Below, one piece after another: positions 24,473-45,797 of a stretch of DNA of 45,797 nt. Under the pieces are notes generated by a model, which ran no database searches, had not been told where the DNA came from, and saw only the letters and a program-made list of their open reading frames with translations. The stretch spans positions 1 to 45,797 of IMG/VR virus record IMGVR_UViG_3300032157_000375; one strand, 5' to 3'. The stretch's first letter is position 1; the number at the start of each line of letters is the position of its first letter. This DNA is from a virus. The position numbers and the translations under genes are program-made.

Positions 24473-25290
24473 CGAGTGGCCCTCAATCGGAATATGTCGT
24501 CGTTGGCGGCCGGCGTCGTGTGCATCGCTGTCTGCCGCCTCATGTGGTGGAGCGCGCGCGGTGCATTCGACTGCGGCCCAGCGGGCGGCACTTCGAGCGC
24601 GAGCGTGATCGCTGCATTGGCCGAGTTGTTGACCGTGGCGGTAGTGACGGCAACGGATCCCGCGGTCACGCGCAGGCCGTAGTAGATGCCGATGCCACCA
24701 CCGTTGCTCGAGGTCGTGCCGTCGTCCGAGAGCTCGGATGCACTGGTGAGATCCGCATTTGCCCAGTCGGCGAAGCCCGCGCCGGCGGTGTCGTCGTCGC
24801 GTGTGATGATGTTGAAGACCACGCTGCCGTTCGACGACGTGGTGACCGTGGGCGCGCTCGCGGACGTGCTGGCGACCGTCTTGTTGGACGAGGCGATCGC
24901 GTCGACCAGGTCCGCGAGCGCGGTGGCGGGATTCAGGCCGCGAATGCCGATGATCACGCAGTAGCCGTGATTGGTCGGATCCGTGATGACCGGCGCCGAC
25001 ATCGCACCGCTCGTGGCGCGTGCCATGTACAGCGTGAGGGACGTGGCTCCACCCGCCGCCACCGAACCGCTGGCCACGGCCGAGAAGCCGTTCGCCGTGT
25101 CGAGGGTGTGGTTCGACTCCGTGCTCTCGATCGCGAGGAGGCCGATGTCGTCGGCTTGGTGCGCGGGCCAATTGCACGAGAACGCATTGATCGAGCTCGC
25201 CGGCGTGCCGGCAACGACGTCGAGTGCGTGCGCCGGCACCGCGACGAGCAGCGCGCAGACAAGGAAGCTGCGCAGCAGCTTAACGATCAT
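24469..25290 (-). CDS. Secreted beta-rich protein of the fibre cluster
   Basis: A 273-residue protein with a signal peptide at about residues 1-22 (MIVKLLRSFLVCALLVAVPA HA) and a mature beta-sandwich of the type seen in phage proteins that read ..GLLAIESTE..TLDTANGFSAV..., GATSLTLYMARATSG and VTTATVNNSANAAITLALEV. The C-terminus after residue 240 is basic and low-complexity (ALHHMRRQTA). Starts at the ATG at 25290, 11 bases inside the previous gene. Exported by inference; substrate or partner unknown. Confidence 0.68.
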   Translation of the reverse strand: MIVKLLRSFLVCALLVAVPAHALDVVAGTPASSINAFSCNWPAHQADDIGLLAIESTESNHTLDTANGFSAVASGSVAAGGATSLTLYMARATSGAMSAPVITDPTNHGYCVIIGIRGLNPATALADLVDAIASSNKTVASTSASAPTVTTSSNGSVVFNIITRDDDTAGAGFADWANADLTSASELSDDGTTSSNGGGIGIYYGLRVTAGSVAVTTATVNNSANAAITLALEVPPAGPQSNAPRALHHMRRQTAMHTTPAANDDIFRLRATR

Positions 25291-28210
25291 TGGCGGCCTT
25301 CCGGTCGACGTAGTAGTCGAACCAGTCATCGTTCGCCGCGGCCCATTGGCCGAAGTCCTCGTCGTTGGCGGCCGTCGACGCGAGCCAATCGAATTCCTGG
25401 AAGCTGTCGCGGTGCGCCTCGTACATCGCGTCGATGAACGCGTCCTCGGAAGACTGGTTCTCACCCTGCATCCAGCGATCGATGTACGCGAACGTCGCGT
25501 AGTGGTCCCACTCGTCGACCAGGTCGAAGGCGAGGCCTGCGAACACCATACCGACGTGCGGATGCGAGTCCTGATCGTTGCGATACGACTCGTCGCTGTT
25601 GCTCGGCATACCGCAGGCGGTGCGCTCCGATGGCGTCAGGTGCTCGTAGTCCCGGTTGTTGCCGAGGTTGTTGCGGAAGAACACCGTGTAGCCGTTGTAG
25701 GTCTCGCCGAGCGGCACGCTGACATTCGCGCAGCGGTTCGGATTGGGGCCGCCCGGCTCGACGTTGTTCTGCCCACGCCACGGATCCGACCAGACGTAGA
25801 AGTCGGCGAAGTCGCGCGGCACCGACCGCAGGTTGCTGATACCCGTGGTGAACAGGTTCAGCATGTTCGAGTTGTTGGTCAGCTTGCCGGCGATGAGGAT
25901 CGGCGGTACCCAGAAGCTTGAGTCCGCGTTGCCACGAGTTCCGACGTGGTAGAAATCGATGCCGAGCTGCACGACGCGGATCAGAAGCGTCTCGTCGATC
26001 GTCTTGTCGCTGGCGAGGTAGGTGTAGAGCTCCGACAGGACCTCACTCACCTCGCGGTGATAGCCGTCCATGTTGAGCGCGGGGTGGATGCCGCGGCTGT
26101 TGAAGTTCGAGCCGAACATCAGCCAGGGCCGCTCGATCGCCCGCTTGTTGCGCTCCAGCGCGTTCGCAAATCCGCTCGAGTTCGGGTTCGGCATGCCGGC
26201 CGTCGAGAGGCGCGGCAGCACGGCCTGGTTGATGCTGCTCGCGTTGTAGAGCGTCTTCGCGGTATCCGCGTACGAGGGGCGGAAGGTGCCGACGGGCGGC
26301 GAGCTCGAGAGCACGGTGAGGATCGCAGCCGTGGCGAGGTTGACCTTGCTGTCGTCGTTGGCGCCGTCCCACTGCGGGCCATCATCGAGCTGCGAGATCG
26401 TGGAGATCAGGGCGTCATTGGTGGAAAGCGTGACCGGGAAAGCGACACGCAGGCTCGCGTTGTAGTTGTAGGAGCGGTCGTCGAAGCCCTGGCTACTCGG
26501 CACCGCGGGGTTGCGCATCGAGCCATGGCGGCCCGTGATAGGCGTCGGGCTCACCGAATTCACGACGACGCCGGCGCCCGGGTTGACAACGAAGTAGTCG
26601 CCGTTGACGAACTGGCCTACCTGGTAGGTGGTGTTGAACGTCCAGGTGATGCCGTACTGCGTGACCGAGCTCTGGGCGGTCGTCGCGATGTTGGCCGTAC
26701 CGTCGTCGTTGGTGATCGTGCCGGTGGCCGTGAACTCGGTGGCGTTGACTGCGGTGCCGTTCTGGCCGCAGTTGTAGACACGCAGGGTCAGCGTCTCGTC
26801 CGGCTCCTGGGTGGCGTCCCCGTTCACCGTGATCGCGATCGGCTCGGTGGTGGTGCCGGAGTCGATCTGCACCGTACCGCTCGCCGCCACGAAGTCGGTG
26901 GAGGATTCGGCCGTGCCGCCGAGCGTCTGGTAGGCGCAGACGATGTTGAATGCCTGCGAGGCGGAGCTCGTCAGCGTGAAACTCAGGCTCGCCGTGCCGG
27001 AGTTGCCCTCGGTGACCGAGGTATTGCCGAGCGAGAGCAGCGCGTTGACGTCGACCGCGGACGTCGTGGCGGTGACACCGGATCCGGCGGTGCTCGCGTT
27101 GCCCGCCGTGTCCACGTCGACCAGGCGGTAGCAGTACGCGGTGTTCTGGGTGCGGCCGGTGTCGGTGTAGGTGGCCTCGGTGACGTTGTCGGCGATCTGC
27201 GCGTACGCGCCGCAGCCCGAGGGCGATCGCTGGACCCGGTAGTAGCTGTGATCGCCGGCGCCCGAGGCCGGAAGGTCCAGCGTGACGGTGGTCTGCGTGA
27301 CGCCGGAGACGGTGGGCGCCGATGGGGCGCTCGGGGGCGTGCTGTCGGTCTCCGCGAACACCGTGTAGGTGACCGGTGCCATGACCGGCTGGGTGAGCGT
27401 GAGCGCGCCAATGGCGGTGCCCACCACGCCAGGTGTCGCGGCGTCCACCGCACCGAAGAAGTCGAGATCGGCCGGCAGTGCGCCGCCGCGGAACACGTAG
27501 TCGTCGGCCAGGACGGTGCCGTTGATCGAGATATCGGCCGTGCCGGCTTCGACGTTGATTCGGCCGGTGACGTTGTACGTGACCCCCGACGAGTACGGGA
27601 TCGTGTTGACCGCGGTGTAGCTCGCATTGTTGCGAGCATCGAAGTTGCCGGCCGTGTTGAGGCGGATCGCGACCAGCGTGTGCGCGTAGGCGCTGATGGC
27701 CTGCGTGCCGAAGCCCACGACATGGTCGATGTTGTTCCCGGCCGGCGTGATCGAGAAGGCGAAATCGAACATGCCGGTCTGGGCCGGCGTGAACTCGGCC
27801 GATGTCCAGGACAGAGCCGCGGTGGTGGCCGAGGCCGCGCGCAGGGTCACGCTGTTCCCGTCGTTCGCGCCCAGCACGAAGTTGAACGTGCCGTTGGTGG
27901 TGGCCGTGCCGGTCAGCGTGGATCCGGCGAGCGAGCAGCCGGTGGGCAGCGAGCCCGACACCAGCGTGTACGTCAGCGTGTCGTTCTCGGCGTCATCGGT
28001 GACCGTGGTCAGGTCGAGCGCGCAGGACGAGGTGCGCTGGATCGAGCGATCCGGGATCGACCAGGTGGGCGCGGTGTTCGGCTCTTCGGGCGGCGTCGGC
28101 ACCACCACGGGCGTCTCGGAACCCGGGACGCAGATGAGAACGATGGGCGCGGCCAGGGCCGATGAGGTGAGAAGCGCGAGCGCTGTCCACCACGAAGCGG
28201 GTTTACGCAA
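25280..28210 (-). CDS. Large secreted multidomain protein, possible receptor-binding or depolymerase factor
   Basis: A 976-residue protein. Residues 1-21 are a signal peptide; 47-117 look like a cadherin/Ig-type domain (He_PIG), 120-260 ConA-like, about 285-385 FN3, about 390-500 Calx-beta (SVTEGNSGTASLSFTL). The last 475 residues are a large alpha-helical domain with many His, Asp and aromatic residues (for example ALNMDGYHREVSEVLSELYTYL split across 20 residues), reminiscent of polysaccharide-lyase or glycosidase toroids, but no catalytic motif is certain. TTG start at 28210 has AGGAG 6 bases upstream. First gene of the late operon. Confidence 0.72.
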   Translation of the reverse strand: MRKPASWWTALALLTSSALAAPIVLICVPGSETPVVVPTPPEEPNTAPTWSIPDRSIQRTSSCALDLTTVTDDAENDTLTYTLVSGSLPTGCSLAGSTLTGTATTNGTFNFVLGANDGNSVTLRAASATTAALSWTSAEFTPAQTGMFDFAFSITPAGNNIDHVVGFGTQAISAYAHTLVAIRLNTAGNFDARNNASYTAVNTIPYSSGVTYNVTGRINVEAGTADISINGTVLADDYVFRGGALPADLDFFGAVDAATPGVVGTAIGALTLTQPVMAPVTYTVFAETDSTPPSAPSAPTVSGVTQTTVTLDLPASGAGDHSYYRVQRSPSGCGAYAQIADNVTEATYTDTGRTQNTAYCYRLVDVDTAGNASTAGSGVTATTSAVDVNALLSLGNTSVTEGNSGTASLSFTLTSSASQAFNIVCAYQTLGGTAESSTDFVAASGTVQIDSGTTTEPIAITVNGDATQEPDETLTLRVYNCGQNGTAVNATEFTATGTITNDDGTANIATTAQSSVTQYGITWTFNTTYQVGQFVNGDYFVVNPGAGVVVNSVSPTPITGRHGSMRNPAVPSSQGFDDRSYNYNASLRVAFPVTLSTNDALISTISQLDDGPQWDGANDDSKVNLATAAILTVLSSSPPVGTFRPSYADTAKTLYNASSINQAVLPRLSTAGMPNPNSSGFANALERNKRAIERPWLMFGSNFNSRGIHPALNMDGYHREVSEVLSELYTYLASDKTIDETLLIRVVQLGIDFYHVGTRGNADSSFWVPPILIAGKLTNNSNMLNLFTTGISNLRSVPRDFADFYVWSDPWRGQNNVEPGGPNPNRCANVSVPLGETYNGYTVFFRNNLGNNRDYEHLTPSERTACGMPSNSDESYRNDQDSHPHVGMVFAGLAFDLVDEWDHYATFAYIDRWMQGENQSSEDAFIDAMYEAHRDSFQEFDWLASTAANDEDFGQWAAANDDWFDYYVDRKAANDR

Positions 28211-32777: not shown

Positions 32778-33170
32778 ATGGCGAGGCCGTTTTCAACAGT
32801 GACGGACAAGAATGCACAGCTGCTCAGGAATGAGCACGCGCGGATCAACGCTGAACGCAAGTCGCGTGGCCTGGGAAAGCTGTTGCTGAAGGATCTGGCG
32901 GTGAAATGGAAAACATCCCCGGGCCTGGTGTCTCAGTATTACCGTGGTCACGAGCCGCTCAACACGAAGTGGAAGATGCGCTTCGCGGAATGGATGGGGG
33001 TTTCCCCGGTCAAGGTCTGGCCGGACTTCGAGCACAAAACGCTGGTGACCAATGAGTTGTCGCCGGAGATGGCCGAGCTCGTGAAGACGCTGGCGGATAA
33101 TTTCGATGAAGACCAGATCGACGCGTTGAAGGCGCTCGTCGCGGCGACGATGAAGAAACGCAAGGGATAA
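32778..33170 (+). CDS. Short lysogenic repressor with XRE helix-turn-helix
   Basis: A 130-residue protein. Residues about 30-68 are an XRE-type helix-turn-helix (KLLLKDLAVKWKTSPGLVSQ and a following EWMGVSPVKVW). The C-terminal part is helical and may dimerise; there is no LexA/S24 peptidase domain, so RecA-driven autocleavage is unlikely. I chose the ATG at 32778; a GTG at 32691 would lie in the third operator and gives a poor start. Together with the Cro-like protein it should set the lytic-lysogenic switch. Confidence 0.7.
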   Translation: MARPFSTVTDKNAQLLRNEHARINAERKSRGLGKLLLKDLAVKWKTSPGLVSQYYRGHEPLNTKWKMRFAEWMGVSPVKVWPDFEHKTLVTNELSPEMAELVKTLADNFDEDQIDALKALVAATMKKRKG

Positions 33171-33172
33171 TC

Positions 33173-33853
33173 GTGCGGCCGGCACGGATCGCTTTGCTCG
33201 CCCTTGCCCTGGTTGCCGGAGTGGCTGTAATGGCCGAGCAACCCCAGCTGGATTTCTACGACAAGCGCATACTCCGGCGGGCTCAGTTCCTCTGCAAGTG
33301 GGCGGAGACGAATGCCCCAGGTAATCCGGTCAGGATCCGAGCGTGCGATCCGACCTGGCCGTACAGTTACGAGGAAACACGCAACGACACTGCGGACTGG
33401 TGGATGCACTGGCAAGACGGCGATCGCGCTGCACAGTTACGACGCGATTTTGAGGACGCCGCAGATGATCTGGACGCCGAGGTCGAGCTTGCAGAGGCAA
33501 AGGAAGCGAAGCGCCAGGCAGCAGCTGCAGCCAAAGCCCGCCGGGAAAGGCAGGTTGCATCTATCCCGTCAATGAACGTAGCGCAGTTGTGCTCGGAGAT
33601 CCGGGTTCACGCCACCACTGCAGCGCTCGAAGAGCTTGTTAGGCGCAACGCGTTCCCAGCTGCCGAAATTTCTTATATTGCGTCCAGGCGCGCCTTCATC
33701 GGCATGACGGAAGGCGGCATGCTGTGTGCGTTCGGCCAGCCGACCCGCGCGAATCGGACTGTCACGGCACGCGGGACAACGATCCAGTTCGTCTTCCCTT
33801 CCGGCGTCTTCATCTACACCGATGATGGCAAGGTAACCGCCTTCCAAGATTGA
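33173..33853 (+). CDS. Secreted protein with BamE-like C-terminus
   Basis: A 226-residue protein starting at GTG 33173 with a signal peptide (residues about 1-21, ALLALALVAGVAVMAEQ). A helical, Ala/Lys/Glu-rich middle (about 90-130) is followed by a C-terminal BamE/SmpA-like domain (FIGMTEGGMLCAFGQPTRAN, then FIYTDDGKVTAFQD). It follows the repressor by 2 bases, so it is likely expressed in the lysogen. It may act at the cell envelope, for example in superinfection exclusion (inference). Confidence 0.65.
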   Translation: MRPARIALLALALVAGVAVMAEQPQLDFYDKRILRRAQFLCKWAETNAPGNPVRIRACDPTWPYSYEETRNDTADWWMHWQDGDRAAQLRRDFEDAADDLDAEVELAEAKEAKRQAAAAAKARRERQVASIPSMNVAQLCSEIRVHATTAALEELVRRNAFPAAEISYIASRRAFIGMTEGGMLCAFGQPTRANRTVTARGTTIQFVFPSGVFIYTDDGKVTAFQD

Positions 33854-33869
33854 TGCGGCAACGCACCGA

Positions 33870-33885
33870 TGTGATCTGACTCACA
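33870..33885 (+). promoter_or_regulatory. CRP box, perfect TGTGA-N6-TCACA
   Basis: TGTGATCTGACTCACA fits the CRP consensus without mismatch. The centre is about 60 bases upstream of the predicted start of the promoter at 33902-33930, the class I position. This suggests cAMP-dependent activation of the DGR operon. It is a palindrome, so another CRP-family protein is possible. Confidence 0.75.
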
Positions 33886-33901
33886 TAGTTTAGGCTGCCT
33901 A

Positions 33902-33930
33902 TTGTTTTCATAAGTTAGGCTGGCTATACT
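33902..33930 (+). promoter_or_regulatory. Promoter of the DGR operon
   Basis: -35 TTGTTT (33902-33907), 17-base spacer, -10 TATACT (33925-33930). The 13-base repeats TTAGGCTGCCTAT (about 33890) and TTAGGCTGGCTAT (about 33915) lie around the -35 and spacer and could be operator sites. The leader (33931-33958) has a small hairpin and a weak ribosome site. Confidence 0.75.
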
Positions 33931-33958
33931 TTTTCCGGGTTCGGAAAAGGTGGCCAAT

Positions 33959-34168
33959 ATGGAAGCAAGCTCTCCCGATCACGCGTTCCGCCAGCCGGCG
34001 TCGCTCGACGATGCTTTGAAGGGTCTATCAGCCGACCAGGCGCTGGAACTCCAGCTAGTCCAGGACGCGATGGACGCCCGGGTCGACAAGGTACGCGCGG
34101 ACAAAGCCTTCACCGAAGCCCAGGCGAGACTCCTGCAGTTCCGCGCCGAGCAGCAGGAGGCCGCGTGA
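33959..34168 (+). CDS. Small hypothetical first gene of the DGR operon
   Basis: A 69-residue helical, Glu/Gln-rich protein starting MEASSPDHAFRQPAS. It ends EAQARLLQFRAEQQEAA. It overlaps the first target gene by GTGA. Unknown family; likely a coiled-coil partner or a leader peptide gene. Confidence 0.55.
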   Translation: MEASSPDHAFRQPASLDDALKGLSADQALELQLVQDAMDARVDKVRADKAFTEAQARLLQFRAEQQEAA

Positions 34169-34734
34169 GCCGCCCTGCCAAGCGCGCCGGCGTGCGCATC
34201 GAATCGTTCAGCTCCAAGGCGCTGACCCAGCTGAGCGGGCTTCTGGCGCCGACAGCCATCACTCCCGCCCGAACGGTTGCCATAGCGCCAGTCGCACGCT
34301 TCACCAAGGTGAGTGCGGCGGGCGCCCTTCTTCCCGATTCCGCCACCGAGTGGGTTGCCGTCTACGACCGCGAGCAGGACCTGGTTTTCTCCCGCAGCGT
34401 TCTGGACGGAACCCACACCTGGGCGAAGGCGAAGAAAGCTGCGGAGGCCGCGAAGATCTGCGGCGTGACCGGATGGCGCATGCCGACGGTCATGGAGCGT
34501 TTCCGCATTTGCGACCACTCGCGCGTGTATCCGGCACTTCCCATCGAGTACTTCAACGCGGACAGCGGTTGGGAGTGGACATCCACTGTCGACGCTGAGT
34601 CCCCCTCGGACGACGCGTGGAGCGTCGGCCTCAGCTACGGCAATTCCGGTCGGCATCGCCAGGGCTGCGACTATCACGTCCGTGCGGTGCGCGCCGGTCA
34701 GTTATTCGGCTTTTGTACTTCCGGAGAAGCCTGA
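34165..34734 (+). CDS. Variable protein 1 (DUF1566/Lcl-type), DGR target
   Basis: A 189-residue protein starting GTG 34165 (GTGA overlap). From about residue 45 it has a DUF1566/Lcl pattern: AVYDREQDLVFSR, a GTHTWAKAKKAAE helix, TGWRMPTVMERF, then WEWTST and the variable segment (145-178). The fold should be C-type-lectin-like, whose variable surface residues come from template AAC/AAT codons. There is no signal peptide. The C-terminus extends 11 residues after VR1. Confidence 0.88.
   Translation: MSRPAKRAGVRIESFSSKALTQLSGLLAPTAITPARTVAIAPVARFTKVSAAGALLPDSATEWVAVYDREQDLVFSRSVLDGTHTWAKAKKAAEAAKICGVTGWRMPTVMERFRICDHSRVYPALPIEYFNADSGWEWTSTVDAESPSDDAWSVGLSYGNSGRHRQGCDYHVRAVRAGQLFGFCTSGEA
34599..34698 (+). 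repeat. DGR variable repeat VR1
   Basis: A 100-base copy of the template at 38651-38750, with 11 substitutions at template A positions and one at a template T (34612, T to G). The last 24 bases are identical to the template, followed by CAG where the template has GAG. Confidence 0.93.
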
Positions 34735-35042
34735 TGGAAGCCATCACCAATCTGTTCACTGGCACCGGCGAGATCCGGATCGACGTCCTGGATCTGCGGT
34801 TCATCGCCTGGTGCCTCCTGTGGATCCTCGCCGCGGTGATCGCCTACCTCGTGGTCTTCACGAAGGCCGCGTACCGCTGGCAGAAGCTCAGCAAGGCCTG
34901 CGGCGGTGAGCCTGGCGCCCTGCAGGTGCTCGCCGAGATGGAGGCGGCGCGCAAGGCGTATGTGGCCGAGCGCGACGCACGGACCGATGAGCAGATCCGC
35001 CGCGGCGGGCGGGTTGCCCGTTCGCTGCGCCTGGTGAAGTGA
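34734..35042 (+). CDS. Small single-pass membrane protein
   Basis: A 102-residue protein with one membrane segment (residues about 22-45, FIAWCLLWILAAVIAYLVVF) and a charged, Arg/Glu-rich cytoplasmic tail. TGATG overlap at the start. Unknown function. Confidence 0.65.
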   Translation: MEAITNLFTGTGEIRIDVLDLRFIAWCLLWILAAVIAYLVVFTKAAYRWQKLSKACGGEPGALQVLAEMEAARKAYVAERDARTDEQIRRGGRVARSLRLVK

Positions 35043-35320
35043 TGTTCAGCGTGCGCGACATGTACCTCAAGGCCGCGTTCGTGCTGCTGATCATCTGCAG
35101 CATTGCGTTCGCGATCGGCTACAGCGCGACCACGGCACCGACGAAGTGGGCTGCATTCAGGGCCGAGCATCCGGTCCGCGCGGTGTTCTTCCGGAACAAC
35201 GTCACGCCGGGCAGCGACTACGAACACCTGACGCCTCACGTCGGTATGGATCTATCGGGTCTTGCCTTTGACGTGATCGAGGCACCACCGCGCGTCTCCG
35301 CCGAAGAGGTGCAGCCGTGA
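35042..35320 (+). CDS. Small membrane-anchored protein carrying a fragment of the large secreted protein
   Basis: A 92-residue protein starting at ATG 35042 with one membrane segment at residues about 8-27. After it, AVFFRNNVTPGSDYEHLTP and HVGMDLSGLAFDVIEA closely match TVFFRNNLGNNRDYEHLTP and HVGMVFAGLAFDLVDE of the 976-residue late protein, but with about 27 residues missing between them. It looks like a captured, internally deleted segment. Confidence 0.65.
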   Translation: MFSVRDMYLKAAFVLLIICSIAFAIGYSATTAPTKWAAFRAEHPVRAVFFRNNVTPGSDYEHLTPHVGMDLSGLAFDVIEAPPRVSAEEVQP

Positions 35321-35517
35321 CACGCACGAGACTCAAGGCCCACGTCGGTTTCTTGGGCGGAAAGCCTGCCCACCTAACCGATCGGGACACCTACGGTGTT
35401 TTTCGCGGCGTGACGCTATTCGACACAAGGACCGACGCACGCACGAGGTTCAAGGATGTGCGCCCGTGCACGGTCACGATTCAGGTTGAGACGAACAAGG
35501 CAAGGAAGCGGACGTGA
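35317..35517 (+). CDS. Small hypothetical protein
   Basis: A 66-residue basic protein starting GTG 35317 (GTGA overlap), ending with KARKRT. No family recognised. Confidence 0.55.
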   Translation: MTRTRLKAHVGFLGGKPAHLTDRDTYGVFRGVTLFDTRTDARTRFKDVRPCTVTIQVETNKARKRT

Positions 35518-35978
35518 CCGACCAGAAGTCTCATCGACTGGCGCCGGCAGATCTCCTGTTGCCGTTGCGCATTCGCGATCGACGAGAGTCAGGCGACCAC
35601 CAGCTGCAGATCGTCGACCAGGGTGCGGAAGGCGCCATGCACATGCTCGTGATCTACACGAGATTCGACGATCGAGCGTTCGCGGAATTCGTCGTCCGCG
35701 CCTGCAACGACTTTGCCATGGTGGTCGAAGAGAACGTGGCGCTGAGACGTCGCGAGGAAGCCGCGCTCAACATCGCCAGCGGCCGCACCGAAGAGCACAT
35801 CCGATTTCAGCGGCAGCGCGACGCGCTGGTGGCGGCGCTGACGAACCTCGAAAGCGGAATTGGCCAGTACCTTGCTGATCCGCTGCGAAAGAAGACCTTC
35901 GCCCATGCCGAACTATTCATCGAGCTGCTCGGCGAGCAGGTAGTTGCCGCCATCAAGGCGGCAAAGGGGCAAGCATGA
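35514..35978 (+). CDS. Hypothetical protein
   Basis: A 154-residue protein, GTG 35514 with a GTGA overlap. Mixed alpha/beta with a helix near residues 90-110 (RTEEHIRFQRQRDALVA). No signal peptide. Unknown function. Confidence 0.55.
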   Translation: MTDQKSHRLAPADLLLPLRIRDRRESGDHQLQIVDQGAEGAMHMLVIYTRFDDRAFAEFVVRACNDFAMVVEENVALRRREEAALNIASGRTEEHIRFQRQRDALVAALTNLESGIGQYLADPLRKKTFAHAELFIELLGEQVVAAIKAAKGQA

Positions 35979-36454
35979 CCACCTACCACGTGAACGTCGT
36001 CTGGGGCACGCCGGTTGCCGGCTACGTGATGCAGCGGCTCGAGGAATTCGATCGCGCGCCGCGCATGCAGTCGAAGCCTGAGTTCTTCGGTGTGTACGAC
36101 CGCGCGGGACGTTTCATGGGCGAGGCCTCGGACCGCCAGTGGGCGGTCCGTTTTTGCGAATCGTTGAACAGGGGCGTGGCCGAGGTCGCCACCAAGTCCG
36201 CCGTGCATCTCCCTCACGCAGGTGATGCGACGCCGGCCGCGCCCCTGGTGCCAATCAAGTCTTTCTTCGACCAGCAGGAGATCCGTGATGGCAATCCTTT
36301 CCCGTTTCCTGAGATGGATTACGAGGCGGAGGTCGCGTCGCCAGGTGCTCGGGGCGCCGTGGAACGATCCGCGCTGCTCGCTCAGCATGCACCGGCGCAT
36401 CCAGGCGGAGAGTCGCTCCCACTTCTGAGGCTCACCGCCAGGCAGGCCGGCTGA
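35975..36454 (+). CDS. Hypothetical protein with an internal terminator in its gene
   Basis: A 159-residue protein starting MTTYHVNVVWGTPV. The first 70 residues are mixed alpha/beta; the rest is low-complexity. Coding sequence contains a strong terminator hairpin (36130-36155), and a second frame starting at 36288 overlaps its 3' part. Start and stop are both coupled to the neighbours (ATGA and TGATG), so the frame is used. Confidence 0.6.
   Translation: MTTYHVNVVWGTPVAGYVMQRLEEFDRAPRMQSKPEFFGVYDRAGRFMGEASDRQWAVRFCESLNRGVAEVATKSAVHLPHAGDATPAAPLVPIKSFFDQQEIRDGNPFPFPEMDYEAEVASPGARGAVERSALLAQHAPAHPGGESLPLLRLTARQAG
36130..36155 (+). terminator. Intrinsic terminator inside a gene
   Basis: GGACCGCC, loop AGTG, GGCGGTCC then GTTTTT: an 8-base perfect stem and U run. 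It would cut most transcripts from the promoter at 33902 before targets 2 and 3 unless translation disrupts it or antitermination acts. Confidence 0.75.
36288..36428 (+). CDS. Overlapping small gene
   Basis: A 46-residue basic protein (MAILSRFLRWITRRRSRR start, RIQAESRSHF end). AGGAG lies 7 bases before the ATG. It is nested in another frame in the gene 35975-36454. Short basic phage proteins like this occur commonly, so it may be real. Confidence 0.5.
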   Translation: MAILSRFLRWITRRRSRRQVLGAPWNDPRCSLSMHRRIQAESRSHF

Positions 36455-36777
36455 TGCATCCGCTGGCGCCACGCATGAAGAGCGGTGAGCCGTGGCCACG
36501 CCACGTGAACCGCGTGCGGGAGATCCGCCGCCTGGTCTACGAGGAAGGTTTCAAGCTCGTGGTCATCCTCGGCGATCGGGATCAGCCCATCTACCGGCTG
36601 ATGAAGGATGGCGAGATCTCCCCCAGCGGCACGGTGGAAGCGTCGGCGGCGCGCAAGGCGGACCACCAGTACTTCGAGACCGTCGAGAAGCTCGCCGACG
36701 GCACCCAGATCCTTGAGCTCTCAGAGACGAAACGCGCGCAGCGACGCGCGACCCAACATGGAGGTAACTCGCAATGA
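36454..36777 (+). CDS. Hypothetical protein
   Basis: A 107-residue, mixed alpha/beta, Lys/Glu/Arg-rich protein starting MHPLAPRMKSGEPWPRH. TGATG overlap before, ATGA overlap after. No family recognised. Confidence 0.55.
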   Translation: MHPLAPRMKSGEPWPRHVNRVREIRRLVYEEGFKLVVILGDRDQPIYRLMKDGEISPSGTVEASAARKADHQYFETVEKLADGTQILELSETKRAQRRATQHGGNSQ

Positions 36778-36947
36778 TCACCTGGATTCTCGCCCTGCAG
36801 CTCGCCGCCACTCCGACGGTGAAGCCACCGGCCTATCCGTATCCGCCGGCGAACCCCTGCTCGAATCCGTTCAAGTGCGACCGCTACCGGCCGCAGTACT
36901 CGACACCACAGCGACCGCTGCCCTGGAAGGGCGGTCCGCGCAAATAA
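36774..36947 (+). CDS. Small secreted Pro/Tyr-rich protein
   Basis: A 57-residue protein with a short hydrophobic N-terminus (MITWILALQLAATPT) and a Pro/Tyr-rich, two-cysteine mature part (YPYPPANPCSNPFKCDRY). GGAGGT lies 8 bases before the ATG. It is just before variable protein 2. Function unknown. Confidence 0.55.
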   Translation: MITWILALQLAATPTVKPPAYPYPPANPCSNPFKCDRYRPQYSTPQRPLPWKGGPRK

Positions 36948-36963
36948 CCCAAGGGAGATTTCG

Positions 36964-37437
36964 ATGAAGCCCACGTACACGAAGCTCGCGGCCGACGGCA
37001 CTGATCTGCCGGCCGACCACCCGAACGACGGACCCGACAAGCACCTCGCGGTGCGCGTCGATCACCCGCTCCTGAAAGAGCCGCTGATCGTGGCCGCCTA
37101 CCGCGCCGGCACCAGCGTGCAGTGGAAGGACGCGGCGGCCGCGGCCGAGGCGCACCAGGCGTACGGCTGGAAGTGGCGGTTGCCGGCGGTCGAGGAATTG
37201 TTCCTGGTCGCCGATCGCACGAACCCGGCCTGCAAGCTCGATCCGAACTTCTTTCCGGATGCCGAGGGCTGGGAGTGGACCTGGACGGCGACGCCGGATG
37301 CCGAGCTCGAGGAAGACGAAGACGGTGCGCCGTCCCCCTCGGGCTGCGCGTGGGGCGTCAGCCTCAGCTACGGCTATTCCTATCGGCTTCTCCAGGGCTT
37401 CGGCTATCACGTCCGTGCGGTGCGCGCCGGTCAGTAG
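36964..37437 (+). CDS. Variable protein 2, DGR target
   Basis: A 157-residue DUF1566/Lcl-type protein. It has a KDAAAAAEAHQAYGWKWRLP helix-strand pattern, WEWTWTATP, then the variable segment (123-156) which ends the protein with a single Gln. No signal peptide. AAGGGAG lies upstream. It differs from the other two in its N-terminal half but shares the fold. Confidence 0.88.
   Translation: MKPTYTKLAADGTDLPADHPNDGPDKHLAVRVDHPLLKEPLIVAAYRAGTSVQWKDAAAAAEAHQAYGWKWRLPAVEELFLVADRTNPACKLDPNFFPDAEGWEWTWTATPDAELEEDEDGAPSPSGCAWGVSLSYGYSYRLLQGFGYHVRAVRAGQ
37332..37431 (+). repeat. DGR variable repeat VR2
   Basis: A 100-base copy of the template with 15 substitutions, all at template A. It is followed by CAG and the stop codon TAG. 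Confidence 0.93.
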
Positions 37438-37473
37438 ATAGACCATTGTCCGTCACCAATCATCGGAGCTAAC

Positions 37474-38142
37474 ATGAAGAAGAAGTCCACGAAGCGCGCG
37501 AAGGTCGCGGTGCCTGCCGTCCTCGAGTCGGTTGCCCAGCCGCCGGCGATCAACATCACTATCGCGCAAACGTTCGACGCGCGCGGCGCCGCCGAAGGCC
37601 TGATCGACCAGCTGCCCGGGATCCTGCAGGCGGCGAATGAGAACCTGCGGGCCGAGCTCGTCGAGCGCCTGCGTACGGCGTCGATCGCCAAGGTGGTTCC
37701 GCCGAAGTCCGCCGTCGCCGTGCGCTTCTGCAAGGTGGCGAGCGATGGCCGCGCGCTGCCAGCGAGCGCCAGCGACTGGGAAGGCGTCTACGACGCGACG
37801 ACTGGTCTCATCTGGGGCCGGCGGTTGCTCGCCGGCGAACGGAACTGGAAAGACGCCGTGAAGGCCGCCGGCGAAGCGACGCTCTGCGGCGCGCCTGCGC
37901 GCGCACCCACCATTCAGGAGCGGTTGTCGATCGTCGACTACCAGCGCGTTGAACCGGCGCTGGACGTCACGTTCTTCGACCCGAAGGAGACCTCGGCGTG
38001 GGAATGGACCTCGACGCCTGCCGCGTCCCCCTCGGACTACGCGTGGTTCGTCAACCTCAGCGGCGGCTATTCCTATCGGTATCTCCAGAGCTCCGCCTAT
38101 CACGTCCGTGCGGTGCGCGCCGGTCAGCCCATCGGACTTTGA
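37474..38142 (+). CDS. Variable protein 3, DGR target
   Basis: A 222-residue protein, basic N-terminus (MKKKSTKRAKVA), a helical region to about residue 90, then the DUF1566/Lcl core (GVYDATTGLIWGRRLL, KDAVKAAGEAT, PTIQERLSIVDY, WEWTST) and the variable segment (184-217). It is closest to variable protein 1. GGAG lies upstream of its ATG. No signal peptide. Confidence 0.88.
   Translation: MKKKSTKRAKVAVPAVLESVAQPPAINITIAQTFDARGAAEGLIDQLPGILQAANENLRAELVERLRTASIAKVVPPKSAVAVRFCKVASDGRALPASASDWEGVYDATTGLIWGRRLLAGERNWKDAVKAAGEATLCGAPARAPTIQERLSIVDYQRVEPALDVTFFDPKETSAWEWTSTPAASPSDYAWFVNLSGGYSYRYLQSSAYHVRAVRAGQPIGL
38025..38124 (+). repeat. DGR variable repeat VR3
   Basis: A 100-base copy of the template with 11 substitutions, all at template A. 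It is followed by CAG, then CCCATCGG. Confidence 0.93.
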
Positions 38143-38157
38143 CCCAAGAGCGAAGCC

Positions 38158-38595
38158 GTGAAGTGTGAACTACCGCAAATCGTGAAAGACGCGCAGCGCG
38201 CAAGGGCCGCCATCGAGCAGGCCTTCACACGCATGGCGCGTCGGCACAAGTACTCGACCGGCGTGGATCTTCGCAGCGCGGCGAAGGGGGTCGTGCTCGT
38301 TGCGCTTCGCGCGTGGCGGGATCCCGCCGGTCGACTCGATCGCGTGCGCCAGCTGTGCGAAGCGGTGGACGCTCTCAAGGTGGATCTGCAGCTCGGCAAG
38401 GATGTCGACGCCTTCCGTAGCTTCCGTGAGTTTGAGGCGATCGTGCGCCTCGTCGACGAAGTGGGCCGGCAGAGTGGAGGCTGGCTGAAACGACTGCTAC
38501 CGAAGGGCCAGGATGCCCGGGCTGATCATCCGCCTGCGCAGCGTGCCCCGATACTGAGTTCCCGATCCGCCTCACGCGCTGGGGCAACACCATGA
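38158..38595 (+). CDS. avd: Avd-like DGR accessory protein
   Basis: A 145-residue protein, GTG 38158, of the four-helix-bundle Avd type, with the region LQLGKDVDAFRSFREFEAIV and DEVGRQSGGWLKRL near residues 80-117. Avd forms a pentamer that binds the reverse transcriptase and template RNA and is needed for mutagenic cDNA synthesis. The last 30 residues are low-complexity. Its stop overlaps the RT start by ATGA. Confidence 0.85.
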   Translation: MKCELPQIVKDAQRARAAIEQAFTRMARRHKYSTGVDLRSAAKGVVLVALRAWRDPAGRLDRVRQLCEAVDALKVDLQLGKDVDAFRSFREFEAIVRLVDEVGRQSGGWLKRLLPKGQDARADHPPAQRAPILSSRSASRAGATP

Positions 38596-39872
38596 CGATG
38601 CCGCGCTACCTCGGATGTGCGGCAGGGTCCGAAGTGATCGGGATAGCGCCGTCCCCCTCGGACTACGCGTGGAACGTCAACCTCAGCAACGGCAATTCCA
38701 ATCGGAATCACCAGAGCTACGACAATCACGTCCGTGCGGTGCGCGCCGGTGAGTGTCACGGTGCGGTCTCGTTACGCAGCCTCTACTCTGCCTGGCGCCA
38801 GGCGCGCCGCGGGAAGAAGCCGAGCCTGGACCAGATGCTGTTCGAGGCCCGGTGGGTCGACGAGCTCCTGGACATCCAGCGCCGCCTGAACGGCCTGCAC
38901 TGGTACCCCATGGCGCCCACGTGCTTCATCGCCCTGGCGCCGAAGGCCCGCGAGATCCACGCGCCGCGCTTCGCGGACCGGGTTGTTCACCATCTCATCG
39001 TTCCCGAGCTCGAGCGGGTGTTCGAGCCGAAGTTCATCCACGACAGCTATTCGAACCGGGTCGGCAAAGGAACGCACGCGGCCGTCGCGCGCCTGCGGCA
39101 GTTCATTCGCCAGGTCGAGTCCGGCCAGGGTGGTGGCTACTACCTGCAGCTCGACATCCGTAACTTCTTCGCCAGCATCCATCGGCCAACGCTCTGGTCG
39201 CTTCTCAAGCCGCGCATGGAGCGCGCCGCCATCTCACTCCCTGTCAGGAAGGCGGTGCATGCGCTTTTGACCTGGCCGATCCAGCGGACCGGCGTCGTGT
39301 GGGCCTGCGACCAAGCTGAGCGCGAGGCCGTGCCGGCGCACAAGCGGTTGGAGAACTCCCCGCCCGGCTGCGGCATTGCCATCGGCAATCTCTCATCCCA
39401 GTTCTTCGCGAACGTCTATCTCGATCGGCTCGATCAATTCGTGAAGCATGAGCTTCGAGCGGCGCGGTACGTCCGCTACGTCGATGACTTCGTGCTGGTG
39501 CACCATGACCGCCGGCAGCTGGAGGTCTGGCACGAGGCGATCGCCGCGTTCCTCGAGCGAGAGCTGCGGCTTGAGCTCAAGGCCGACGTGAAGCTCAGGA
39601 CGCTCGCCGACGGCATCGACTTCCTCGGCTACGTGCTCTTCCCCTCTCACGTCGTCACTCGCCGGCGGGTCATTGGCCATTGCCGCGCGAAGCTCGCCGC
39701 CTGGGAGCGCACGCATTGTCACGCTGGCCACATCACGGAGAGCCGCAAGGCGCTGGAGGCGGTGCGCTCGATCTGGTCGAGCTACTCGGGTCACTTCGCG
39801 CATGCGAGCAGTTTCAAGCTGCGTCTCGACATCTACCGCAGGTTTCCCTGGCTCTCGCGGGTGATGGCATGA
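38592..39872 (+). CDS. DGR reverse transcriptase with in-frame template repeat
   Basis: A 426-residue frame. The RT part is from about residue 57. Catalytic motifs: YLQLDIRNFF with D188, the DGR motif IGNLSSQ at 264-270 ([ILV]GxxxSQ) and YVDD at 296-299. The enzyme copies template RNA with errors at A. Residues 20-53 are the template repeat itself in the same phase as the targets. No ATG is in frame after the template; a GTG at about residue 50 is possible. Start at 38592 is chosen from its ATGA overlap with avd. Confidence 0.9.
   Translation: MTMPRYLGCAAGSEVIGIAPSPSDYAWNVNLSNGNSNRNHQSYDNHVRAVRAGECHGAVSLRSLYSAWRQARRGKKPSLDQMLFEARWVDELLDIQRRLNGLHWYPMAPTCFIALAPKAREIHAPRFADRVVHHLIVPELERVFEPKFIHDSYSNRVGKGTHAAVARLRQFIRQVESGQGGGYYLQLDIRNFFASIHRPTLWSLLKPRMERAAISLPVRKAVHALLTWPIQRTGVVWACDQAEREAVPAHKRLENSPPGCGIAIGNLSSQFFANVYLDRLDQFVKHELRAARYVRYVDDFVLVHHDRRQLEVWHEAIAAFLERELRLELKADVKLRTLADGIDFLGYVLFPSHVVTRRRVIGHCRAKLAAWERTHCHAGHITESRKALEAVRSIWSSYSGHFAHASSFKLRLDIYRRFPWLSRVMA
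38651..38750 (+). repeat. DGR template repeat TR
   Basis: The 100-base template matching VR1-VR3. It has 23 A; only three (A of the first AGC, A of CAG, A of the last CAC) are unchanged in all three copies. Seven Asn codons (AAC/AAT) give the greatest diversity. The 3' end is GC-rich and A-free (24 bases), ending GGT, then GAG, whereas the VRs have CAG; this is the likely IMH* against IMH difference. Confidence 0.93.
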
Positions 39873-40311
39873 GCCCGATCCGCCCCGAGAACCTCGACCG
39901 CTATCCGTCCGACTGGGCGGAGATCCGCGCGCGGATCCAGCAGCGGGCGAAGAACTGCGCGAGTTCTGCAAGGTCCGGAACTGGGCGATCGGCGGGCGCA
40001 CCAAGGATGGGAACTTCGTGCCGCTGTTCCAGCCGCACGAGGATCCCGCGGCCGCGCGCGACAGCATCGGCAAGGTTGCCTGGTGTGGTGCCTCTGGGCC
40101 GATCGAACTGCTGCGCATCATCCGGATCGTCTGCACGGTCGCGCACCTCGACCACGTGCCCGAGAACTGCGACGAGGCGAACCTTCGATTCCTCTGCCAG
40201 CGCTGCCACCTGCATTACGACAGGCAGCATCACGCCGAGACCGCCTATGCGTCGCGGCGTGAAGGCAAGGCGGCTTCTGATCTCTTCGAAGACGAGGTCA
40301 CGGCTGCATGA
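39869..40311 (+). pseudogene. HNH endonuclease gene with a frameshift
   Basis: The ATG at 39869 overlaps the RT stop. The frame MSPIRPENLDRYPSDW... then breaks at about 39956-39960, where a shift of one frame restores CEFC-like and later HNH: HLDHVPENCDEANLRFLC, CHLHYDR. This is the common phage HNH protein. Either a 1-base deletion or a 2-base insertion explains it. Could be a sequencing error, mutation or programmed shift; no slippery site is evident. Confidence 0.8.
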
Positions 40312-40517
40312 AGCGATACGAAGACGTCATCGAGAGCCGTTGGGCGCCACACCTGCAGCCTCTGGGGTTGGCTGAGCCACCCATGTGGATCTGGGCGCAA
40401 TACCGCTGGCGCTGGTCAGCCAAGCTTGCTGCGCTTTTGTTCAACGCCAGTCCGGCCAGAGGCATGAATACTCTAGCCATCTCATGCGCTTACTGGCGGC
40501 GGATCGAACGCGCATGA
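40308..40517 (+). CDS. Small hypothetical protein
   Basis: A 69-residue Trp-rich basic protein starting MKRYEDVIESRWAPHL. ATGA overlaps on both sides. No family. Confidence 0.55.
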   Translation: MKRYEDVIESRWAPHLQPLGLAEPPMWIWAQYRWRWSAKLAALLFNASPARGMNTLAISCAYWRRIERA

Positions 40518-40756
40518 CCCAGACGCGTCGGCAATCGATGATCGAAGCCGCCACCAACATCGTGGTCGGGATCCTGCTCAACACGATCCTGAACTTCACG
40601 ATCTTTCCGCGGCTCGGTTTTCATATCACCGCCAGCACCAACGCGCTGCTGGTGGTCGTCTACACCGGCGCCAGCCTCCTGCGTTCGTATGTGCTGCGCC
40701 GCCTCTTCAATCGCTGGCATCGGCCGGCATCACTCCAATCGAGGAATCCGCTGTGA
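40514..40756 (+). CDS. Phage membrane protein (DUF7220-like)
   Basis: An 80-residue protein starting MTQTRRQSMIEAATNIVVG, with two hydrophobic segments (about 12-30 and 38-60) then YVLRRLFNRW. The pattern is that of DUF7220 proteins, common in phages near ParB and RT genes. Function unknown. ATGA overlap with both neighbours. Confidence 0.7.
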   Translation: MTQTRRQSMIEAATNIVVGILLNTILNFTIFPRLGFHITASTNALLVVVYTGASLLRSYVLRRLFNRWHRPASLQSRNPL

Positions 40757-42372
40757 CCCAGACCAGCAAGGGCGAGTTTCGCCTCATCAATCCGACGCTG
40801 ATCAAGTTCTCCAATTCAGTCGCCCAAGCCGAACGCCGCAAGCACTTCAACGCCGAGCAGCTCAAGGAGCTGATCGAGAGTGTCAAGGCGAACGGCATCG
40901 TCCAGCCGATCGTGGTGCGCCCAGCGTTCCGCAGCAAGGTTCTGAACCACCTCGAGGGCGATCCAGAGTTCGAGGTCGTCGCCGGCGAGCGTCGCGTGAT
41001 AGCCGCGCGCAAGGTTGGCCTCGAAGTCGTGCCTGCAATGCTTCACCAGCTGGATGATGAGCAGGCGCTCGACGTCCAGCTGATCGAGAACCTGCAGCGC
41101 GAAGGCCTGCACCCACTGGTCGAGGCGGAAGGCTACGAGGACCTGAAAGGCCGCGGTCACTCGATCGAAGAGATTGCCGATCGTGTCGGCAAGTCCACGT
41201 CGTACATCTACAAACGTCTGGAGCTCACCGGCTGCTGCAAGCAGGTCCGCGCCGCGTTCTACGATGGGAAAATCGACGCGTCACGCGCCCTGGCGCTGGC
41301 CACGATCAAGGACGAAGAGCAGCAGAAGCAGTGCCTCAAAGAGATCACCGCGGAAAACGAATGGCGCCCCGCGATGAGCTTTCGCCAGGTGATGTCTCAC
41401 ATCCGCGAGAACTACCGCCTGCAGCTGAGCTCGGCCCCGTTCAAGACCGAGGACGCAAACCTGGTGCCCGCCGCCGGCCCGTGCGGTAAGTGCCCCAAGA
41501 ACACGTCGCGGCAGCCCGAGGATCTCTTTGGAGACGTATCCAAGAATCCAAAGGCGATGTGCACCGACTCGAAGTGCTTCCAGCAGAAGTGCGTTGCGGC
41601 CGCGGCCATCGTCTCGGCGGCGGCGCGTGCGAACGGGCAGATCGTCATCGAGGGCGATGCGGCGAAGAAGATCATTCCGAAGGACAGCTACAAGAACCAG
41701 CCTTCGGACAGCAGCGGCTATGTGGCACTTGATGAGAAGTGCTACGACGACCCGAAGTACCGCACCTATCGGGAGATCATCGGCAAACACATGACGCCGG
41801 CGATCGTGATCTCGCCGAAGGACAACAGCGCCGTCGAGGTCATTAAGGAAACCGACTTCGCGAAGGCCTGCAAGGACAAGGGTATCAAGCTCGAGTCGCG
41901 GGCGAGCTCGTCGAGCGGTGGCGGATCCAGCCATCACGAGGCGCAGAAGAAGGCGAAGGCCGAGACGAAGTTCCGCCGGACGACGTACGAAGCTGTGCGT
42001 CCCAAGCTCCCGGAAAAGCTCGGCCGCTCGGATCTCGCCTTCGTCGCCAGCACGCTGGTCGACCAGGCTGGCGATGAAAGCCGCAAGGAACTCACCCGGC
42101 TATGGATGCCCGACTACAAGGGCGAGGCCTGGAATGCGATGCGTGCGCTCGAGAAGAAGATCGACGGCCTCAAGGAGCACGAGCTCGTCCTGCTGATTCA
42201 GGACTGCCGCTACGCGCGCGAGCTGCGCGCCAGCACCTACAGCAATTCCAGGCCGGAGGCCTTGCTCGAGGCTGCAAAACGGGCACGCGTCGACGTCGAC
42301 AAAATCCGTAAGGAGTGCACGCCGGTGAAGAAGGTCAAAGCCAAAAAGGCGGCCGGAAAGAAAAAGGCCTGA
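40753..42372 (+). CDS. ParB/Spo0J-like protein with zinc-type insert
   Basis: A 539-residue protein, GTG 40753. The N-terminal ParB domain has GERR at 78-81 and LIENLQRE at 110-117, a CTP-binding pattern. A helix-turn-helix follows (137-156, IEEIADRVGKSTSYIYKRL). A Cys-rich region near 240-290 (CGKC, CTDSKC..KC) may bind zinc; the C-terminus is Lys/Ala-rich. No ParA is near. Phage-encoded ParB-like proteins of this type can be DNA-binding regulators or clamp-like factors. Confidence 0.8.
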   Translation: MTQTSKGEFRLINPTLIKFSNSVAQAERRKHFNAEQLKELIESVKANGIVQPIVVRPAFRSKVLNHLEGDPEFEVVAGERRVIAARKVGLEVVPAMLHQLDDEQALDVQLIENLQREGLHPLVEAEGYEDLKGRGHSIEEIADRVGKSTSYIYKRLELTGCCKQVRAAFYDGKIDASRALALATIKDEEQQKQCLKEITAENEWRPAMSFRQVMSHIRENYRLQLSSAPFKTEDANLVPAAGPCGKCPKNTSRQPEDLFGDVSKNPKAMCTDSKCFQQKCVAAAAIVSAAARANGQIVIEGDAAKKIIPKDSYKNQPSDSSGYVALDEKCYDDPKYRTYREIIGKHMTPAIVISPKDNSAVEVIKETDFAKACKDKGIKLESRASSSSGGGSSHHEAQKKAKAETKFRRTTYEAVRPKLPEKLGRSDLAFVASTLVDQAGDESRKELTRLWMPDYKGEAWNAMRALEKKIDGLKEHELVLLIQDCRYARELRASTYSNSRPEALLEAAKRARVDVDKIRKECTPVKKVKAKKAAGKKKA

Positions 42373-44047: not shown

Positions 44048-44341
44048 ATGCCAAAGAAATTGACCGCAGAGACCGACCGAAACAAAGCGGCAGCCAAGGC
44101 CCTGAGGGCGTTCGCGGCGCGCATCGAGAATGGCGAAATCGACCTGGTGGAGATCAGCCGCAGCCGCGATCTCCATGAGGCAACGTCGTGGAGCGATATA
44201 GGCGCGACGTTCGTACCCGGCGCTGAAAGGCTCACGATCAAATTCCATCGTGTCTCGAAATCCATAGGCCACACGTCACTAAGTGATTCGGCCGACAAGC
44301 CAGCGCCAAAGCTGCGAGCGAAGGCGAAGCGCCGGCGCTGA
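44048..44341 (+). CDS. Small hypothetical protein before the recombinase
   Basis: A 97-residue protein, ATG 44048, with GGAG 6 bases upstream. Basic ends, a beta segment (FVPGAERLTIKFHRV). Unknown; one base before the recombinase start. Confidence 0.6.
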   Translation: MPKKLTAETDRNKAAAKALRAFAARIENGEIDLVEISRSRDLHEATSWSDIGATFVPGAERLTIKFHRVSKSIGHTSLSDSADKPAPKLRAKAKRRR

Positions 44342-44342
44342 C

Positions 44343-45797
44343 ATGCGCTGCATCCTTTACGCGCGCTTTAGCACAGATCGCCAGTCCGAGAGTTCGATCG
44401 AGGATCAGCTGCGCGTCTGCCAGGAATACATCCGCGGCCGCGGCTGGAGCGTCGCCGGCGAGTTCAGCGATCACGGCATAAGCGGCGCCGCGCTCGGCAA
44501 TCGACCTGGCGTGCAAGCCGCTCTCACGCTCCTGACATCCGGTGACGCGCTGGTGATCACGGACCTTTCGCGCCTGTCGCGATCGCAGGACCTGGCTCCC
44601 CTGCTCTCGCGTCTTCGCTTCCGCGGCGTGCGCGTGCTCGGCGTCCAGGATGGTTACGATACCGAGGCGCGGACCGCGCGCATGCAGGCGGGCCTGTCGG
44701 GAATCATGTCCGAAGAGTTCCGCATGATGGTGGCCGACCGTACGCGCTCCGCGCTCGAGCAGCGCGCGCGGGACGGCCGCCCGACTGGTGGCAAGGCCTT
44801 CGACAATGCCGACTTGGTGCGCGAGATCTTCACGCGCTTCGCCGCCGGCGAGTCGATGCGCGCGATCGCGAGCGACCTGAACGGCCGCGGGATCCCCTCA
44901 CCAGGCGCGCAGTGGAAAGAGCGCAGCCGGCCTCGAGGCGCGTGGCAGGTATCGACCTTGCACACCCTCTTGCAGAACGAGCTCTACGCGGGCCGGCAGA
45001 TCTGGAATCGGTCCCGGTGGGTCAAGGATCCGGACACCGGCAAGCGCCAGCGGATCGAGCGACCGCGGTCCGAGTGGGTGGTCCGGGAGATCGAGCCCAT
45101 CGTCGATGAGGTCACCTGGCAGCGCGTCCAGGCGCGTTTCGTGAAGCACCCCGGGCACAACAATCGGGGCAGCTACATCCTGTCAGGGTTGCTCGTATGC
45201 GGCCTGTGCGGCGGCAAGCTCATCGTGGTGGGAGGCAGCCAGCGCCGGTACGTCTGCGGCACCCACCACGCGGCCGGGCCCCATGCCTGCGCCAATCGCA
45301 AGGGCATACCGAGGCTCACGGCCGAGACGCGGATCCTCGCCCGTACGAGGGCCGAGCTGCTGTCTGCGGAGGCCGAGGCGGCTGGGCTGAGGGAGATGCG
45401 CGCGGCCCGTGCCGAGCTCGAGCGTGAGGCCCAGCGGCCGGGCGAGGTCGATCGGGACGTCCGGGAGCTCGAGCGTCTGGTGCGCGAGGGCATCCTGAGT
45501 CCGGAGGCGGCCGCCCCGTCCCTCGATGCAGCCCGCAGGAGGGCCGCTCAGCGGCGCTCGAAGCCGGTCGAGGGGTTGCCCTGGCCGACGGCCGCGGCGT
45601 GGCGGGAGGCTGTGAACGACCTCTCAGAATTGCTTATGAGCGAGGATCCGGCGGCTGCGCGCGCCGCGCTTCGCGAGATCATCGGCGAGGTGCGCTGCTA
45701 TCCGGCCGAAGACCACGTGGTCGCAGAGCTGGCAGCAGTGCGAGTAGTCCTGGCCACCGGCACAGGTATATCAATTGGTAGCGGGGGCAGGATTTGA
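44343..45797 (+). CDS. Large serine recombinase (phage integrase)
   Basis: A 484-residue protein. The resolvase domain starts at ATG 44343, with catalytic S10 in YARFSTDRQS and the DLSRLSR helix at 75-81. It is followed by a recombinase domain (about 155-280), a zinc ribbon with CGLCGGKL and CGTHH, and a coiled-coil region. It would integrate and excise the prophage by att site recombination. It ends exactly at the window edge. Together with the tyrosine recombinase it gives the phage two integrases. Confidence 0.9.
   Translation: MRCILYARFSTDRQSESSIEDQLRVCQEYIRGRGWSVAGEFSDHGISGAALGNRPGVQAALTLLTSGDALVITDLSRLSRSQDLAPLLSRLRFRGVRVLGVQDGYDTEARTARMQAGLSGIMSEEFRMMVADRTRSALEQRARDGRPTGGKAFDNADLVREIFTRFAAGESMRAIASDLNGRGIPSPGAQWKERSRPRGAWQVSTLHTLLQNELYAGRQIWNRSRWVKDPDTGKRQRIERPRSEWVVREIEPIVDEVTWQRVQARFVKHPGHNNRGSYILSGLLVCGLCGGKLIVVGGSQRRYVCGTHHAAGPHACANRKGIPRLTAETRILARTRAELLSAEAEAAGLREMRAARAELEREAQRPGEVDRDVRELERLVREGILSPEAAAPSLDAARRRAAQRRSKPVEGLPWPTAAAWREAVNDLSELLMSEDPAAARAALREIIGEVRCYPAEDHVVAELAAVRVVLATGTGISIGSGGRI

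Follow-up and report, generated by a model that had tools for sequence, protein, structure and literature searches.

How does the reverse transcriptase (RT) of a diversity-generating retroelement (DGR) choose the one repeat that it is to copy when near-identical repeats stand in its targets? The question is raised by positions 34599-38750 of the virus record IMGVR_UViG_3300032157_000375, analysed here over its full 45,797 bp (the window), where one template repeat (TR) is accompanied by three variable repeats (VRs). Template choice by a DGR RT is well studied only for BPP-1, in which a structured spacer lies 3′ of the TR. Here we describe another layout found in a large clade of phages and prophages, which consists of a covarying RNA that extends over parts of two genes 5′ of the TR, a stem that encloses the TR, and a template that appears to code for part of the RT. 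We consider it highly probable that the window holds the DGR of a temperate siphovirus-like phage with one TR, three Lcl_C targets, an RT open reading frame (ORF) that spans the TR, and the covarying RNA as the mark of the template.

An earlier note, made from the sequence of the window alone, had proposed the TR and its three VRs and had counted by hand 11, 15 and 11 changes at template A and one at another base. Computed alignment located all four repeats where the note had them and, over 38651-38750, returned exactly these counts. The homology to the TR extends differently in each VR (38646-38750 for VR2, 38650-38750 for VR3 and 38651-38750 for VR1), and the base that follows, on the side of the initiation of mutagenic homing (IMH) site, differs between template and targets:

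38646-38750, plus strand: TR, with 23 As; in frame with the surrounding RT ORF, its reading frame being that of the three VRs
34599-34698, plus strand: VR1, 11 mismatches at template A and a single T>G; C at 34699 on the IMH side
37327-37431, plus strand: VR2, 15 mismatches at template A and none other; C at 37432
38024-38124, plus strand: VR3, 11 mismatches at template A and none other; C at 38125
38751-38751, plus strand: discriminator of the IMH* type, G after the TR and C after each VR

Pooled over the three VRs, 37 of the 38 mismatches fall at template A, with hypergeometric p values of 1e-7 (VR1), 9e-13 (VR2) and 8.5e-9 (VR3); a chance origin of this A-confined pattern is excluded. All 23 template As occupy codon positions 1 or 2, none position 3, and 18 of them are altered in at least one VR. 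The frames of the VRs were set by the phase of the TR, since taking the longest ORF led to errors where loci are G+C-rich. The sole non-A change is the G at window position 34612 (VR1), where the TR has T at 38664. The difference between IMH and IMH* at the 3′ ends of the repeats, G after the TR and C after the VR, is kept in 22/22 related loci, with one VR, in L025, offset by 3 nt (L-numbers denote related loci compared with the window). A further conserved element follows the VRs only (34699-34720, 37432-37455 and 38125-38145); its family consensus is about CAGTAATYGGCCTTTTGG, it is degenerate in the window, and it is a candidate target-recognition site. A search downstream of the VRs for BPP-1-like hairpins found a short GGCC-loop-GGCC that many relatives share and that is weak in the window.

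The Avd protein, the RT with YVDD and IGNLSSQ and the Lcl-fold targets of the earlier note were all borne out by profile and motif searches. The genes are as follows:

34165-34734, plus strand: target 1, 189 aa, GTG start; C-terminal Lcl_C, Pfam E 1e-16, above the curated cut-off
36964-37437, plus strand: target 2, 157 aa; C-terminal Lcl_C, Pfam E 1e-11
37474-38142, plus strand: target 3, 222 aa; helical N-terminal part and Lcl_C, Pfam E 1e-19
38158-38595, plus strand: avd, accessory variability determinant; PHROG 3206 'Avd protein of DGR', E 6e-12
38592-39872, plus strand: RT ORF, 426 aa; leader 38592-38645, TR 38646-38750, RT fold from about residue 58

Lcl_C scores above its cut-off in all three targets, placing a C-type-lectin-like fold at the VRs, which lie at the 3′ ends of the target genes. 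The AlphaFold model of target 3 has as its best PDB match 8q4e, the C-terminal domain of Legionella Lcl (E 8e-5), and a PDB sequence search with the target alignment gave no match. The accessory protein of a DGR is represented by avd, for which NCBIfam DivGenRetAVD (E 5e-8) and Pfam also match, both below their cut-offs. The RT ORF matches RVT_1 (E 6e-16) and the PHROG reverse transcriptase family (7e-92), finds the reverse transcriptase 8ub7 as its best PDB match (E 1e-50), and carries GIAIGNLSSQ and YVDD, that is, the DGR-type motifs [IVL]GxxxSQ and YxDD.

The system is an active-looking DGR, because the VRs of near-identical relatives differ at template-A sites and not elsewhere. For example, L007 and L008 are 95% identical over 10.5 kb and have identical TRs. 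In their two VRs, 13/22 and 19/22 of the template-A sites have diverged and 0/89 of the others; the 250 nt of target that immediately precede these VRs show 0 and 6 differences. Between the window and L005, whose RTs are 92% identical, two VRs differ at 15/22 and 14/22 A sites, compared with 3/83 and 3/79 elsewhere. Across nine VR comparisons among relatives, 52-86% of template-A sites differ versus 0-4% of the others (p 3e-9 to 1e-18), the A-specific variation of a DGR. The earlier note had said that its reading would fall if variation between relatives were not enriched at template A, and in all nine comparisons it is enriched. That the TR/VR pairs are relics of a decayed DGR without present activity deserves almost no credence: VR1 does hold its one non-A change, while the RT, avd and the three targets are intact and the A-site differences of L005 and of L007/L008 speak against decay.

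The whole TR lies within the RT reading frame, a feature absent from the earlier note. The avd stop TGA at 38593-38595 overlaps the RT start codon (ATGA), and from this ATG at 38592, 54 nt before the TR, the ORF runs through the TR in the frame of the targets. By its sequence, the TR does not stand apart before the RT gene but forms an in-frame part of the RT ORF. The same arrangement was scored in a first set of 23 loci with a complete 5′ region and in a further, independent group of 71, of which 63 were scored and eight left out (RT motif absent, or no TR in the fetched stretch). The TR stands inside an open RT frame in 23/23 and 63/63 loci, respectively (86/86), and the ATGA, which overlaps the avd stop in 23/23 loci of the first set, is present in 60/63 of the independent set. 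Leader and linker contain no RT-frame stop in 746 codons, compared with 7 and 11 in the other frames (the latter being 30 less 19 avd stops). Five loci (L006, L011, L019, L095 and L098) lack any ATG, GTG or TTG from the start of the TR up to the RT domain, which means that their RT must start upstream of the TR. In L010, L111, L117 and L126 the phase of the TR is shifted within the RT ORF, yet the ORF is open from the ATGA into the RT; continuity is thus kept whatever the frame of the TR. Judged by these frames, continuity of translation appears to be the selected feature, the leader/TR peptide itself probably not being under selection. In L010 the TR is flanked by two compensating frame shifts.

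These counts bear on another explanation, namely an ordinary BPP-1-like DGR whose ORF is extended upstream by accident, being open because the region is G+C-rich and the TR is a copy of coding sequence, and whose RT starts inside the TR or at a rare codon after it. The weak conservation of the leader peptide and its disorder in the model agree with such an accident, as do the GTG found inside the TR of many relatives and the phages of the RT-15 group and other bacteria in which the RT can start only inside the TR or just after it. What makes it unlikely is the constancy of the ATGA-avd overlap and of the open frame, the five loci without a usable start codon, the lack of stops in the one frame where the other two have them, and a frame preserved even when the phase of the TR changes.

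The second feature of the layout is a structured RNA that covers the 3′ end of avd and the RT leader and ends at the TR start, together with a helix, P3, that joins both flanks of the TR:

38506-38645, plus strand: structured RNA element 5′ of the TR, helices P1, P2 and P4-P7; from RNAalifold, also found de novo in an independent alignment
38506-38508/38545-38547, plus strand: P1
38514-38521/38533-38540, plus strand: P2
38550-38555, plus strand: P3 5′ arm GATACT, within the 3′ end of avd, pairing across the TR
38752-38757, plus strand: P3 3′ arm AGTGTC, inside the RT ORF just after the TR
38561-38567/38636-38642, plus strand: P4, ending 3 nt before the TR
38569-38572/38582-38585, plus strand: P5, hairpin 38569-38585 with 3′ arm GGGGC
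38594-38596/38627-38629, plus strand: P6
38601-38606/38617-38622, plus strand: P7

Synonymous divergence declines from about 0.6 to 0.27-0.34 over the last codons of avd, stands near 0.4 through the leader and TR, and has recovered to about 0.62 immediately downstream of the TR. The RNA model has 35 pairs in seven helices, with 94.9% of cells paired. Double changes occur in 94 cells at 21 pairs versus 24 cells after shuffling, and the covariation score is 0.407 versus 0.138 shuffled and at most 0.08 slid; these helices were derived from the alignment on which they were scored, which counts against the figures, and the two separate checks are a de novo fold of independent loci and a test of P3. 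The fold, on 39 new independent loci, gave the same P1, P2, P4, P5, P6 and P7 with double changes in 23/28 pairs. P3 pairs in 61/62 new loci, versus 25.8 shuffled (maximum 38 among 2000), with the variant forms GAAACT/AGTTTC, GGAACT/AGTTCC, GCAACT/AGTTGC and GAGACT/AGTCTC. The arms of P5 covary as well, GCCTC/GAGGC with ACCCC/GGGGT, and its 3′ arm GGGGC is likely the Shine-Dalgarno sequence of the RT. A search of the window against Rfam 15 gave no match to the element.

Outgroup loci were searched with a covariance model. Model R1 was rejected: it includes the TR, and it matches VRs also. The TR-free model R2 was built because the matches of R1 are partly driven by TR sequence. With R2, the 3′ end of the element falls on the TR start or no more than a few nt away in L031, L033, L038, L039 and L040 (outgroup matches E 7e-10 to 2e-3); in L042 it ends 17 nt short and in L037 further off. 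P3 is present also in L031, L038, L039 and L040. Among 234 genomes of the family of Rhodanobacter thiooxydans, R2 matches 10. It might be argued that the structure is conserved solely for regulating RT translation, as a coupling hairpin with no part in templating, and P5 does sequester the likely ribosome-binding site beside the ATGA. A regulator would leave unexplained why P3 pairs both flanks of the TR, why P4 ends so close to it, and why the element stands at the TR start in the five outgroups just named, whose RT starts elsewhere; we regard this view as quite unlikely. The same outgroups indicate that the element predates the fused ORF.

The RT tree (63 rows) points to the same order of events. 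The loci with the TR in the ORF and the RNA element form one clade (support 100/100), nested among lineages that have the RNA and an RT not fused in frame with the TR, which suggests that the RNA came first and that the RT start moved later to the avd stop. In the same tree the RT-15 phages form a separate clade, and Vibrio phage VP58.5 and Pseudoalteromonas phage ACA1 gained a read-through TR independently.

Known systems share parts of this layout. BPP-1 (mtd/avd/TR/brt, NC_005357) has the same order of target, avd, TR and RT and A-specific TR/VR mismatches, and 8ub7, the best PDB match of the window RT, is a BPP-1-type reverse transcriptase. However, BPP-1 has between TR and brt a 144-nt spacer with Rfam RF03022 (Phage_DGR), which recruits bRT-Avd and primes cDNA (PMC12875486), whereas the window has no spacer, a structured RNA 5′ of the TR, and the TR inside the RT ORF. 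Rfam found no BPP-1-type structured 3′ spacer, the linker is short and its synonymous divergence is not lowered, and past the P3 arm the sequence after the TR shows no sign that its nucleotides are constrained. An RNA element 3′ of the TR within the RT coding sequence, as in BPP-1, was rejected as a candidate since synonymous divergence does not drop there.

The phages LPPA56, Magia, Cruim01 and vB_Sb_QDWS, which carry the RT-15 RNA (RF03018), resemble the window in a structured RNA that stretches between the 3′ end of avd and the start of the TR, and have two VRs. They differ in that the RT start codon lies inside the TR in another frame and their RTs fall in a separate clade. RF03018 has no match in window positions 33000-41000 up to E 1, and R2 has none in the RT-15 loci. 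The Rfam RT-15 matches in L068 (4689-4879), L069 (4727-4909), L073 (4187-4379) and L077 (2795-2977) end 1-3 nt from the TR start, which makes RT-15 look like a template element of DGRs. In these four loci the sole RT start codon near the RT domain is an ATG inside the TR, in another frame.

In VP58.5 and ACA1 the RT ORF likewise starts on the avd stop (ATGA) and reads the TR in the target frame. They are of independent origin in the tree, a single VR was found, the target motif is different, the TR begins 12-13 nt after the ATGA, about 140 nt of ORF separate the TR from the RT domain, and a search with R2 found no element in their loci. The annotated read-through RTs are at 4231-5508 of L076 (VP58.5) and 4731-5996 of L072 (ACA1). 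An overlap of TR and RT ORF was noted in 2012 as an annotation class, which, as far as the accessible part of that source goes, is silent on conserved translation of the whole TR, coupling of avd stop and RT start, and an RNA element.

How then might the template be chosen? We propose that one mRNA gives both avd and the RT. Ribosomes ending avd would open P5, in which the probable ribosome-binding site of the RT is hidden, and would begin again at the ATGA; the RT would thus bear a disordered N-terminal tail of about 58 residues from the leader and the TR. The same RNA would be the template for copying, marked by the 5′ element, and P3 would place the 3′ end of the TR, where the cDNA must start, beside that element. 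The mRNAs of the targets would not be copied because the flanks of the VRs (of the CAGTAAT type) are without the P3 arm. RT-Avd would then make cDNA with errors at A, and this cDNA would replace a VR. It is possible, if doubtful, that the mechanism depends on translation of the template as such: the link between avd and RT synthesis, with ribosomes passing over the very RNA to be copied, would determine which mRNAs serve as template, or the tail encoded by the TR would act in cis on its own RNA. If true, the mRNA of a polymerase, its template and the structure that selects the template would be one overlapping sequence of a retroelement.

Several points weigh against this account. Conservation of the leader is stronger at the RNA than at the protein level, with a pN/pS of 0.82 (bootstrap 0.73-0.93) compared with 0.98 and 1.02 in the shifted frames. 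AlphaFold leaves RT residues 1-54 disordered (pLDDT 33-41). On both grounds the tail may be only tolerated. The window has a GTG inside the TR (38739), in principle a possible RT start, and translation through the TR is deduced from the conserved frame and start codon. The part of the RNA that RT-Avd would bind and the presumed priming site of the cDNA are placed by position and by analogy with BPP-1. Protein-level constraint on the leader, once considered as the main proof of translation, was dropped, the signal being weak. Alignments with homologous phage RTs begin no earlier than residue 45, and most begin at 56-64.

The earlier note had drawn attention to the number of targets, holding several per RT to be rarer than one. 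This needs qualification. Several VRs occur in 28.6% of 948 published DGRs (PMC6642488), a list from 2012 gives 24 cases with 2-4 VRs (PMC3521204), and phage DGRs with two targets have already been studied (PMC10743442). Among the 63 independent related loci, 14 have one VR, 37 two and 12 three (49/63 with several), counts that are lower bounds as the fetched DNA was limited in length. Because several VRs are common both in the literature and in related loci, the arrangement of one template and three targets is ordinary, and the TR inside the RT ORF and the RNA element are more interesting than the number of targets. A covariance model of the element offers a means of finding such DGRs; the TR and the RNA element alike are lost from view when a gene caller places the RT start at the RT domain.

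The remainder of the record, in which no terminal repeats were found, has terminase, portal, head protease and tail genes on the minus strand, with the DGR on the plus strand. Positions 21000-45797 gave no nucleotide match to nearby named phages. Two unrelated recombinases are encoded, a tyrosine integrase (20608-21741, minus strand) and a large serine recombinase (44283-45797, plus strand); the latter has Resolvase, Recombinase and zinc-ribbon domains and ends exactly at the end of the record. Beside the structural genes lies a 976 aa protein (25280-28210, minus strand) with a Calx-beta domain and a weak match to a sialidase-like CBM. Shortly downstream of the RT, a 539 aa ParB-like protein (40753-42372, plus strand) has several PHROG ParB matches.

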